A stretch of 64,000 nt of DNA from Candidatus Peregrinibacteria bacterium (GTDB lineage: Bacteria; Patescibacteriota; Gracilibacteria; UBA1369; UM-FILTER-53-11), in contig JACPMA010000001.1 in the NCBI GenBank assembly GCA_016186205.1, positions 124,001-188,000 on the forward strand. The letters are read 5' to 3'. Below are positions 46,890 through 60,151 of this stretch, one piece after another (the first letter of the stretch is position 1; each line of letters opens with the position of its first letter). The translations under genes and the position numbers were made by a program. The notes under the pieces were generated by a model, which saw only the letters and a program-made list of their open reading frames with translations, did no database searches and had not been told where the DNA came from.

Positions 46890-47760
46890 TTCCCATGCTC
46901 TGTGATAAAACCTATGAGCTTTTTGTTCCTTGAAAACAGGGAAATCAAAAATCTGGAATGTAATAGAGAAACCCTATGTGAAACAGCATGAAATGCTGTT
47001 TCACGAATTATAATAAAAATTTTTATAGAGCCTTTTAGGCTCTTCATTTTAATGAAGAGTTTGATCCTGGCTCAGGATTAACGCTGGCGGTGTGCATAAC
47101 ACATGCAAGTCAAACGGATGTAGCAATACATCAGTGGCAAACGGGTGCGTAACACGTTGGAACCTCCCCCGAAGTGGAACATAACCAGTCGAAAGATTGG
47201 ATAATATTCCATGGTCTCGCAAGAGTAAAGTCTTACGACGCTTCGGGAAGGGCCTGCGGCCTATCAGCTTGTTGGTGAGGTAACGGCTCACCAAGGCTAT
47301 GACGGGTAGCTGGATTGAGAGATCGATCAGCCACAGGGGAACTGAGAGACGGTCCCCACTCCTACGGGAGGCAGCAGTGAGGAATCTTCCGCAATGGGCG
47401 AAAGCCTGACGGAGCAACACCGCGTGAAGGATGAAGTGGTTCGCCATGTAAACTTCTTTTCTGAGGGAAGAATTCTGACGGTACCTTAGGAATAAGCACC
47501 GGCTAACTCTGTGCCAGCAGCCGCGGTAAGACAGAGGGTGCAAGCGTTATCCGGAATCATTGGGCGTAAAGCGTGTGTAGGCGGAATTTCAAGTCGGGGG
47601 TAAAATTCCCAAGCCTAACTTGGGGCTTGTTCCCGAAACTGAAATTCTCTGAAGCATGCAGGGGCATCTGGAATTCTGTGTGTAGGGGTAAAATCCGTAG
47701 ATACACGGAGGAACGCCAAAAGCGAAAGCAGGATGCCGGGCATGTCTTGACGCTGAGACA

Positions 47761-48550
<790 letters not shown>

Positions 48551-48818
48551 ACCCTGGTAGTCCACGCCGTAAACTATGAGAACTCGGTGTAGGAGGAATC
48601 GACCCCTTCTGTGCCTAAGCAAACGCGTTAAGTTCTCCGCCTGGGTAGTACGGTCGCAAGACTAAAACTCAAAGGAATAGACGGGGACCCACACAAGCGG
48701 TGGAGCATGTGGTTCAATTCGACGGTAAACGAGGAACCTTACCTAGGTTTGACATCCCGGGAAGTCTGCCGAAAGGCGGATGTGCCGTAAGGAACCCGGA
48801 GACAGGTGCTGCATGGTT

Positions 48819-49712
48819 ACGCGCAATCTGCGCGGATGACCCTTTCTCGCGTAAGTGAGATTGCAACACTGGCTCATAACGGTGAAACCCCAATGCTGGT
48901 ATAATTTCAGTAATGGGTAATACCGTGGGAAGTATGAATGCTCCTTTTTGTAACTTTTTTGATTCATCAAAAAAATCTTATATTTTAGGTCTGTGGTGTG
49001 CCGATGGTTATCATCGCACCAGCAGTGTAGGCATAAGTACTATAAATTTAAGAATTGTTAATAGTTTTTACAATTTTTTTTCAACTCTTTTCTCCAAAGA
49101 TCGTATCAAATTAAAACTGTATTACCCGTTAGTAAGTTCTACAGAAGGAGAATCCGAATGGTTGGAAAAAGTTGGGAAAATATTTAGAAATTTTTCATCA
49201 AAAGCCACTGCGCTTGCACATCATTTATATGTAGACAGTCGTCCTCTATTAAGGTCATTCCGGCAAGCTCGTTCTATGCTTGAAGACATGAATAATAAAG
49301 AAATTATTGCAGCATATTTCGCAGGACGGTTTGACGGAGACGGTTCGTTATCATCTGATGGCGTAAGTGATTGTAGAATTGTATACACGACTTTTGAAGA
49401 AGCAAAATTAGACAAGAAGCTCTTGGAAAAATTGTCAATTTTATATAGCAATATTTATTTATATAAGAAAGCGAAAACTTTTTGTTTATATATTTACAAA
49501 AGTAACGCGCCTAATTTTATTTCAAGAATCAAAAAATATTCCACAAAGTTATAAGAGAGAGCATTCATACCCCGTAGAGACTTAGTTATTTCATAAGGGA
49601 ATAACTGGATTTTCATTATTTTAATGAAAATAAAACGCCAGCCCCCTCACTTTAAACTTTAAGGGAGGGGTGAATGTATAGTCCGTGCCCCGCGGAATCG
49701 GGGAAAAACATG
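48819..49712 (+). other. Group I intron 2 in 16S rRNA (E. coli position about 1060)
   Basis: 894 nt between GCTGCATGGTT and GTCGTCAGC. The 5' exon ends in T and the intron ends in G. An internal guide GACC can pair with exon GGTT, with a U-G pair at the splice site. Core: CCGTAGAGACTTA (R) and TATAGTCCGTGCCC (S). The homing endonuclease ORF sits in a loop closed by GAATGCTC/GAGCATTC. Confidence 0.88.
48934..49554 (+). CDS. LAGLIDADG homing endonuclease in 16S intron 2
   Basis: Site-specific DNA endonuclease that spreads the intron. Two LAGLIDADG helices are visible: SYILGLWCADGYH and AAYFAGRFDGDGSL, each ending in the acidic metal-binding residue, so it is a single-chain two-motif enzyme. 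I use the ATG at 48934; an ATG at 48913 lies in the conserved intron core. The coding part is AT-rich compared with its host gene. Length, 206 residues, fits small intron-encoded members. Its start codon lies within the closing helix of the loop. Confidence 0.87.
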   Translation: MNAPFCNFFDSSKKSYILGLWCADGYHRTSSVGISTINLRIVNSFYNFFSTLFSKDRIKLKLYYPLVSSTEGESEWLEKVGKIFRNFSSKATALAHHLYVDSRPLLRSFRQARSMLEDMNNKEIIAAYFAGRFDGDGSLSSDGVSDCRIVYTTFEEAKLDKKLLEKLSILYSNIYLYKKAKTFCLYIYKSNAPNFISRIKKYSTKL

Positions 49713-50170
49713 GTCGTCAGCTCGTGCCTTGAGGTGTTTGGTTCAGTCCATAAACGAGCGCAACCCTCGTCCTGTGTTGTATATTTCTCAGGAGACTGCC
49801 GGCGAAAAGTCGGAGGAAGGTGAGGACGACGTCAAATCAGCATGGCCCTTATACCTAGGGCGACACACGTGCTACAATGGCCGTTACAGCAGGAAGCCAA
49901 CTCGCAAGAGGGAGCAAATCCTTAAAAGACGGCCCAAGTTCGGATTGAGGTCTGCAACTCGACCTCATGAAGCTGGAATCGCTAGTAACCGCGTATCAGC
50001 CATGGCGCGGTGAATATGTTCCTGGGTCTTGTACTCACCGCCCGTCAAGCTATGGGAGAAGGGAGCGCCTAAAGCATTACCGTAAGGTAGTATCAAGGCG
50101 ATATCTTTGACTGGAGCTAAGTCGTAACAAGGTATCCGTAGGAGAACCTGCGGATGGAATACCTCTTTTT

Positions 50171-58858: not shown

Positions 58859-58935
58859 TGGTGGGCGGTGGAAGACTTGAACTTCCGACCTCGACATTAT
58901 CAGTGTCGCGCTCTAACCAGCTGAGCTAACCGCCC
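58859..58935 (-). tRNA. tRNA-Ile (GAT), CCA encoded
   Basis: Acceptor GGGCGGT/ACCGCCC, D arm GCTC/GAGC, anticodon arm CGACA-CTGATAA-TGTCG (anticodon GAT), T arm GGAAG-TTCAAGT-CTTCC, discriminator A and encoded CCA. It precedes DUF47-pit and has the tRNA-mimic leader. Confidence 0.96.
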
Positions 58936-58991: not shown

Positions 58992-59020
58992 AGTATAACA
59001 AAACATAATTTGTTTGACAA
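58992..59020 (-). promoter_or_regulatory. Promoter of tRNA-Ile-DUF47-pit
   Basis: TTGTCA (59015-59020), 17 bp, TATACT (58992-58997) on the minus strand. Its -35 box overlaps that of the divergent Met-leader promoter. The start near 58985 puts the mimic hairpin in the pre-tRNA. Confidence 0.7.
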
Positions 59021-59042
59021 AGATAGGGCTATTGACTATAGT
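59014..59042 (+). promoter_or_regulatory. Promoter of the Met leader / homocysteine methyltransferase
   Basis: Consensus TTGACA (59014-59019), 17-bp spacer, TATAGT (59037-59042). Start near 59049, about 6 nt before the leader ATG at 59055. Confidence 0.78.
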
Positions 59043-59054
59043 TATTCCGTTATT

Positions 59055-59126
59055 ATGATTTTTCTGAAAAATATGATGATGGCTATGATGATGCGCATCC
59101 GGCGAAGGTCGATGCGAAGTTCGTAG
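59055..59126 (+). CDS. Methionine-rich leader peptide
   Basis: A 23-codon ORF beginning MIFLKNMMMAMMMRIR and ending in TAG; eight Met codons in all, two runs of three at 59073-59081 and 59085-59093. It lies between a strong promoter and an intrinsic terminator, upstream of a homocysteine methyltransferase, which makes methionine. No Shine-Dalgarno; leader about 6 nt. Ribosome stalling for lack of Met-tRNA would leave GGCGAAGG (59101-59108) free for the antiterminator. The ORF is visible; its role is inferred. Confidence 0.83.
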   Translation: MIFLKNMMMAMMMRIRRRSMRSS

Positions 59127-59163
59127 CTGTCTGAAATTTTCTACGACTTGCCAAGCCTTCGCC
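59101..59163 (+). promoter_or_regulatory. Antiterminator hairpin of the Met attenuator
   Basis: GGCGAAGG (59101-59108) pairs with CCTTCGCC (59156-59163). Inside it, AAGTTCGTAG (59117-59126, containing the leader stop) pairs with CTACGACTT (59141-59149) with one bulge. Formation removes the 5' arm of the terminator. A ribosome that reaches the stop codon would break the inner stem. Confidence 0.72.
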
Positions 59164-59180
59164 AACGCGGAGGTTTTTTT
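59156..59180 (+). terminator. Attenuator terminator before the homocysteine methyltransferase
   Basis: CCTTCGC (59156-59162) pairs with GCGGAGG (59167-59173), loop CAAC, then seven T (59174-59180). Ends 24 nt before the ATG at 59204. Confidence 0.82.
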
Positions 59181-59203
59181 ATTTATATATTTTATTCATT
59201 TAT

Positions 59204-60151
59204 ATGTCACTAGCACCAAAAACACTTTTCGGACCGCACGGCACACTTCTTGAAGATGAAGAAAGAAAAACTGGAATCATCGGTCTTGCTGATCCAAAGC
59301 AGATTTTAAATGGACCTCGCTATAGAGATGCAGTCATATCAGTTGCAAGATCTTATATCGATGCAGGTGCAAGAGTGGCGGCGACAAATACCTTTCGAGT
59401 TCGACATGTTCTTGACGGTAGCGATCCTAGCCGCATCGATCGATATCGAGCTATTGTGCGCGGCCATTTGCTTGCTCTTCAAACGGCTATTGATGGCATC
59501 GATGAAGAAATAATCCGTGTTATTTCATTGGGACCGGCTGGAGATTGTTATAAACCGCATGAAGCGCCGGATCGTTTGCAGGCAGAAGAATTTCATGGAT
59601 ATCAAGCTTCTACAGTAGCCCAACTCGATGTTGATTTTGCATGGTTTGAAACAGTTAATACGATCGAAGAAGCTGTTGGAATCGCTATTGCTGCAAAAAA
59701 AGCAGGAGTTCGATGCGTTATAAGTTTTGTCATTGATAGCGAAGGCGATCTTTTGAGCGGAGAGTCGATTTACGATGCCATAAGGGAAATTGACGGGGTT
59801 ACGAATAATTATCCTTTCGGATTCGGTTTGAACTGTTGTCCTATTGAAGGAATTCAAAAGGCTATGCAAAAATGCGGGTCGCTTCGCCATAGAATAATCG
59901 CAGTGTATCCAAATGCTTCTTCGTTTCCTCCAAATGAGCTTTCCGGAAAAGCCTTGCATGATCATGTTCTTGGAGTAGTTGATCCGGATGGCGTTGCTGC
60001 TTATTTGCATGGTTTAGCTCGAGAAAATCATCTGCAAATTATCGGAGGCTGCTGCGGTTTTACGCCAAAAGACATCGCTAAAATTTCTCATGCTGTTCGC
60101 CATGGCATAATTCAGTCCAATATTCCAAGAACGGATAAACACCGTGGTTGA
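59204..60151 (+). CDS. Homocysteine S-methyltransferase family protein
   Basis: Zinc enzyme that transfers a methyl group to homocysteine to make methionine (PF02574: MmuM/YitJ N-terminal/BHMT type). The zinc-binding cysteines are present: GFGLNCCPIEG near residue 210 and IIGGCCGFTPKDI near 285; GARVAATNTFRVR is the usual TNTF motif. 315 residues, so the methyl donor would be S-methylmethionine, SAM or a betaine, not folate. Controlled by the Met-rich leader attenuator. It converges with glycerate kinase, 3 nt apart. Confidence 0.88.
   Translation: MSLAPKTLFGPHGTLLEDEERKTGIIGLADPKQILNGPRYRDAVISVARSYIDAGARVAATNTFRVRHVLDGSDPSRIDRYRAIVRGHLLALQTAIDGIDEEIIRVISLGPAGDCYKPHEAPDRLQAEEFHGYQASTVAQLDVDFAWFETVNTIEEAVGIAIAAKKAGVRCVISFVIDSEGDLLSGESIYDAIREIDGVTNNYPFGFGLNCCPIEGIQKAMQKCGSLRHRIIAVYPNASSFPPNELSGKALHDHVLGVVDPDGVAAYLHGLARENHLQIIGGCCGFTPKDIAKISHAVRHGIIQSNIPRTDKHRG

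Follow-up and report, generated by a model that had tools for sequence, protein, structure and literature searches.

Leader-peptide attenuation is classical for the trp, his, leu, thr, phe/pheST and ilv systems. Comparative genomics has carried it beyond these groups: in Firmicutes, hisS*/hisZ were found to follow His leader peptides (Naville and Gautheret 2010, PMC2965389). Actinobacteria have leaderless leader peptides, e.g., leuL and trpL of S. lividans (PMC8079986; Seliverstov et al. 2005, PMC1262725). For methionine, a comparative survey of Actinobacteria found no conserved RNA structure before methionine operons (PMC1262725), and the literature that we searched held a single earlier claim of a Met leader: metL, a proposed Met-dependent leaderless leader peptide before metNIQ of S. 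lividans (PMC8079986). The metL case differs from the leaders described here in that it concerns a single species, has only two internal Met and no Met run, has a transporter as its target and has not been shown to be conserved; furthermore, no intrinsic terminator was found there (PMC8079986).

We describe a leader in a stretch of 64,000 nucleotides (here called the window) of a Candidatus Peregrinibacteria genome, before a gene for a homocysteine S-methyltransferase (HMT), which is very probably part of a ribosome-mediated transcription attenuator sensing methionine; this reading was reached in silico, the switch and its signal are inferred, and there are no expression, ribosome-profiling or termination data. 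Like the classical attenuators, the device combines a small leader ORF crowded with codons for the end product, antiterminator and terminator structures that exclude each other, and a biosynthetic gene downstream; unlike them, it would sense Met, is predicted to be often leaderless, and is found in Patescibacteria. In most Met-leader instances, in contrast to the textbook trp leader, folding predicts that RNA left untranslated tends towards the antiterminator. The device resembles the leaderless leaders of Actinobacteria in having an ORF that would be translated from a transcript whose 5' end lies at the start codon or close to it, but the phylum and the amino acid are different. Similarly, it shares with the hisS*/hisZ leaders the recognition of leader-peptide attenuation by comparative genomics outside the classical groups, whereas those leaders concern histidine and Firmicutes (PMC2965389). 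Methionine genes are also controlled by SAM riboswitches (S-box etc.) and Met T-boxes, both of which often act by attenuation, and by MetJ, but these systems rely on binding of ligand, tRNA or repressor, whereas the Met leaders would sense by translation.

We found nothing on Met attenuation in Patescibacteria in the literature searched, which did not extend to most subscription journals. Within that literature, the mechanism class is known, and Met as the sensed residue, this phylum and these targets appear to be new. If the reading is true, comparative evidence places methionine among the residues monitored by leader-peptide attenuation, and does so in a large phylum that is uncultured and of whose regulation next to nothing is known.

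The leader region and its gene

The leader begins with a sigma70-type promoter on the forward strand (59014..59042), with TTGACA at 59014-59019, a 17-nt spacer and TATAGT at 59037-59042, matching 11 of the 12 consensus positions. The leader peptide ORF, MIFLKNMMMAMMMRIRRRSMRSS (59055..59126, forward strand), consists of 23 codons, eight of them Met, and a stop codon. Only Met is enriched, and codons 7-13 form the run MMM-A-MMM (59073..59093, forward strand), which is the proposed stall site. Because the ATG at 59055 lies 12 nt past the -10 hexamer, the predicted 5' UTR is only about 5-6 nt long, and there is no Shine-Dalgarno sequence. When the 59 ORFs of at least 150 aa in the window were tested for a short upstream ORF with four or more Met among seven codons together with a terminator, this site was the single positive.

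Two mutually exclusive hairpins can be drawn in the forward-strand RNA. Strand 1, GGCGAAGG (59101..59108), is perfectly complementary to strand 4, CCTTCGCC (59156..59163), and the antiterminator hairpin that they would close (59101-59163) folds at -24.0 kcal/mol, with a predicted inner hairpin at 59114..59151. Strand 4 is common to the antiterminator and to the 5' arm of an intrinsic terminator, whose hairpin of 10 pairs (59153..59176; AAGCCTTCGC-CAAC-GCGGAGGTTT, -13.0 kcal/mol) uses the same CCTTCGC arm and ends in a T7 tract (59174..59180), the first three T of which are also paired in the stem. The terminator (59153-59180) sits between the leader ORF and the gene, as it does in relatives. 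The gene upstream of the leader is a tRNA-Ile (58859-58935) on the opposite strand, so the window terminator is not the end of an upstream forward-strand transcript, and we ruled out the hairpin as the terminator of that gene.

The gene downstream (59204..60151, forward strand) encodes a homocysteine S-methyltransferase family protein of 315 aa that matches PF02574 (S-methyl_trans; E = 2e-40). Its zinc-binding cysteine motifs, NCCP and GGCCG, are invariant or nearly so among relatives, and its best PDB relatives are MetH, Hcy methyltransferase and BHMT. The metK and ahcY genes adjoin each other in the window's genome (G000) on a contig other than the window's, and no match to metA was found in that genome. 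With metK and ahcY side by side, HMT would regenerate Met from homocysteine and thus close the activated-methyl cycle, with the caveat that its activity and methyl donor are unknown. The original prediction had named a consensus promoter, a 23-codon ORF with eight Met codons, a leader of about six nt without Shine-Dalgarno, the pairing of 59101-59108 with 59156-59163, a mutually exclusive terminator with seven T and a methionine-forming enzyme behind them; each of these elements is present at the positions given, the enzyme as judged from the PF02574 match and the two cysteine motifs.

Conservation among HMT orthologues

The window's genome is 1.39 Mb in size, and its order-level relatives are named Candidatus Peregrinibacteria or Peribacteria. 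Elsewhere in the window, the 16S rRNA gene (47054-50167) spans about 3.1 kb and carries some 1.6 kb of extra sequence with an ORF for a LAGLIDADG-type homing endonuclease (48913-49554; PF14528, E = 9e-7), probably a self-splicing intron. A genome scan with the window protein alone as query gave no match, and one with an alignment as query succeeded. Ten other genomes of the order carry an HMT orthologue, 38-45% identical (tblastn), each preceded directly by a Met-rich leader ORF and a terminator. Leader and terminator are also present at HMT orthologues from elsewhere in the class (L035, L036 and L038; ~30-34% identical). An examination of orthologous upstream regions for these two elements had been proposed at the outset as a check, and the outcome was favourable: both were found in 14 of 14 close or intermediate HMT orthologues (Peregrinibacteria/Peribacteria and relatives), and the alternative strands co-vary. 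Neither a Met leader nor a terminator was found at any of five distant HMT paralogues (L012-L015 and L041).

The leader peptides of the orthologues, for example MNTFVSTLLSALAPASSMMAMMMQMIMPLRRRLLWLMV, MKTFAQQNGLQQTSSMMMSMMMLSLRRPVVW, MNTSRPQLAMMMQMQMMLSMRGLMWSM and MNSTSAQIARSQSSSMMMMSMLVRQGPKC, diverge except at the Met run, and in most orthologues strand 1 begins 5-10 nt after the first base of the last Met codon of the run. The terminator arm differs between genomes (CCTTCGCC, CTCCGCA, TCCCCGT, CACTTCGCTGG), and strand 1 complements the arm of its own genome. Duplexes of strand 1 with its own terminator arm were better than those with permuted partners, with no exception in 20,000 permutations, both in the full set and in a thinned set from which close relatives had been removed before permutation; however, because the sequences are related, the permutation P values are not independent tests. 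RNAalifold predicted no pairs on a MAFFT alignment because spacer lengths vary, and own-versus-permuted duplex energies and state-specific folding were used instead. At two loci (L007 and L008), the leader immediately follows a tRNA gene with an apparently partly duplicated 3' end (CCCTCCCTGCCCACCA occurs twice), and these leaders have no clear promoter of their own.

Folding and proposed mechanism

We folded 55 instances, taking the RNA that is free once the polymerase has just made the terminator 5' arm. The median probability that this arm is sequestered was 0.71 if nothing was translated; stalling of a ribosome at the run's first Met gave 0.81, its presence at the last Met 0.69, and its arrival at the stop codon 0.05. 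The drop at the stop codon stems partly from there being less RNA left to pair, and a shuffle control was therefore used: the mean for real sequences was 0.79, versus 0.48 when the intervening RNA was dinucleotide-shuffled (52 distinct instances; Wilcoxon P = 4e-10). In the window leader, arm sequestration was 0.82 untranslated, 0.82 at the first Met, 0.62 at the last Met and 0.30 at the stop codon, and it fell to 0.03 when the ribosome stood at Met20 and so covered strand 1. As far as folding goes, the arm is thus sequestered in the stalled state and freed at the stop codon, so that stalling would favour readthrough and completed translation would favour termination. Two points weigh against this: thermodynamic folding takes no account of kinetics, and the whole window leader folded freely prefers the terminator (-42.2 kcal/mol versus -35.1 kcal/mol with the antiterminator forced). 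That the antiterminator is placed such that stalling exposes it and full translation masks it rests on sequence and folding alone.

The start codon lies 6-9 nt past the -10 box in 24 of the 45 leaders with a recognisable promoter, implying a leaderless mRNA for those leaders (the gap in the window is 12). About half of the leaders thus look leaderless.

The mechanism that we propose is as follows. When charged Met-tRNA is scarce, the ribosome would stall in the Met run and leave strand 1, which lies further downstream, free to pair with strand 4 ahead of the synthesis of strand 5; no terminator would form, and the methyltransferase gene would be transcribed. When Met is plentiful, the ribosome would reach the stop codon and cover strand 1, permitting the terminator to form and ending transcription before the gene. 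The mRNA has, by prediction, little or no 5' UTR, and the untranslated RNA mostly favours the antiterminator; the gene may therefore also open when initiation with fMet-tRNA fails. It is plausible, as an untested inference, that the initiating ribosome also reports the supply of Met or fMet-tRNA. Since Met also starts every protein, such a device could in principle couple the supplies for initiation and elongation. The inference in the original prediction that stalling at the Met run opens transcription finds in silico support in the conservation of the leader, in its co-varying strands and in the other Met targets. What can be read from the sequences is that a putative promoter, a Met-rich ORF, predicted mutually exclusive hairpins and a presumed Met-forming gene are conserved together, with co-varying strands, and that the arrangement is reused before other genes predicted to produce Met.

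Specificity and alternative explanations

A strict test asked for a short ORF starting with ATG in which some stretch of seven codons holds one residue four or more times, together with a terminator. For Met, it was passed by 12 of 19 HMT loci (counting the five paralogues that have no leader), by 10 of 17 metA loci and by 23 of 38 loci of a family that we call SAM-HAT-like (divergent SAM hydroxide adenosyltransferase-like); no other residue scored above 3 in any target set. The product of metK consumes Met. A Met leader with terminator was found at 0 of 30 metK genes and at 0 of 30 genes for the Met-tRNA synthetase (metG), and SAM synthetase and MetRS were thus ruled out as targets. Matches to MMMxMMM at L042, L045, L050, L057, L075 and L083, among many, were excluded because they were Asp/Met repeats in other frames, lay in long frames or had no terminator.

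Anatomy alone cannot distinguish a shortage of Met-tRNA from nascent-peptide arrest, in which the Met-rich peptide would stall the ribosome on a small molecule such as SAM, homocysteine or free Met. TnaC is the model for such arrest and responds to tryptophan; runs of a single residue and a conserved basic tail (R.RR/RG), both of which the leader peptides have, could act in the exit tunnel. However, the basic tail is accounted for by strand 1 (GCGAAGG/GCGAGGG), there is no conservation of the leader peptide beyond the Met run, and the runs themselves vary from MMM to MMMxMMM to MQMQMM. Moreover, arrest induced by the product would switch on when product is plentiful, which is the wrong way round for biosynthetic genes, and we consider this explanation unlikely.

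Elsewhere, as is well established, most methionine genes are under SAM riboswitches, T-boxes or MetJ (PMC1262725), and the leader might instead contain a riboswitch or T-box as the real sensor, the Met-rich ORF being incidental. However, the window leader and those of 20 related loci gave no match at the gathering threshold to any Rfam family, the SAM riboswitches and T-box included, and this explanation was rejected on that ground. The leaders are, in addition, just ~120-170 nt long, with little conserved besides the Met run and the alternative strands, and we consider the explanation very unlikely. It is scarcely credible, finally, that an (ATG)n repeat has come by chance, or as a by-product, to stand before the ordinary terminator of an unrelated transcription unit. 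ATG repeats do arise by chance or in Asp-rich genes, as several matches in long frames or without terminators attest, but in dozens of genomes the ORF keeps its place and its start and stop codons, with the terminator and the co-varying strands kept as well, the device is found at Met-producing genes and is absent from metK and metG, and no forward-strand gene lies just upstream in the window. Attenuation through the supply of charged Met-tRNA is thus the reading we retain.

Other targets of the Met leader

A search for ATGATGATGNNNATGATGATG across 353 genomes of the class revealed a like leader and terminator also before metA and before a family without a confident name, the SAM-HAT-like genes, so that the Met leader provides a handle for finding methionine genes. 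The metA product is a homoserine acyltransferase, and 10 of the 17 metA genes in the class follow a Met leader and terminator; the sole metA that turned up elsewhere in the phylum, in a second class (L141), is preceded by a tandem pair of Met leaders. HMT and metA form one operon behind a single Met leader in the genome G223. No leader passing the strict test was found at 7 of the 17 metA genes or at 15 of the 38 SAM-HAT-like genes.

One SAM-HAT-like member (L072) is above the cut-off of PF01887, and the others tested were below the cut-off of PF20257 (C-terminal domain) or unmatched. The first profile built for the family matched solely DUF62/SAM hydrolase structures in the PDB. An AlphaFold model of one member (pLDDT 92) had 34 significant PDB matches, all 34 of them to SAM hydrolase, chlorinase or fluorinase (halogenase-fold) entries, with E from 1e-6 to 3e-11 and probability 1.00, but with a TM score of only ~0.5. 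SAM hydrolases yield methionine and adenosine, and we infer from the profile and the model that the family may be a divergent SAM hydrolase serving as a Met source, an activity that is untested. HMT, metA and SAM-HAT-like genes would then encode three unrelated enzymes with methionine as the product of each, their activities being inferred. HMT and SAM-HAT-like genes were not found together in any genome of the class; the expected overlap is one or two, and the absence is not significant.

Judged by these leaders, the device is a putative regulon that spans a class and reaches another class of the phylum. A broader proposition is that Met attenuation is widespread in Peregrinibacteria-like Patescibacteria, where it replaces SAM riboswitches, T-boxes and MetJ, that its targets are interchangeable and include a divergent SAM hydrolase, and that leaderless leaders with antitermination as the default read fMet-tRNA at initiation and Met-tRNA at elongation; we advance this only tentatively, and lean slightly against all of its parts holding jointly.

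One family (f31) counts against full coherence of the targets, since some of its Met leaders precede small ORFans of unknown function. At several of its loci (L060-L064, L067, L068, L070, L071 and L076), the Met leader follows a RecG-like C-terminus, and the next gene is either SAM-HAT-like or an ORFan of 70-140 aa, often starting MVNLLP or MVNILP, with a proline-rich protein starting MADQPTPP-like often found downstream; neither the ORFans nor the proline-rich protein had a confident Pfam match. One metA match (L128, in G144) contains 10 in-frame TGA, as expected for a lineage of the class that reads TGA as glycine; because the leader search used the standard code, a leader may have been missed there. 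Tandem units of Met leader and terminator stand before a single gene at L126, L135 and L137, as at L141.
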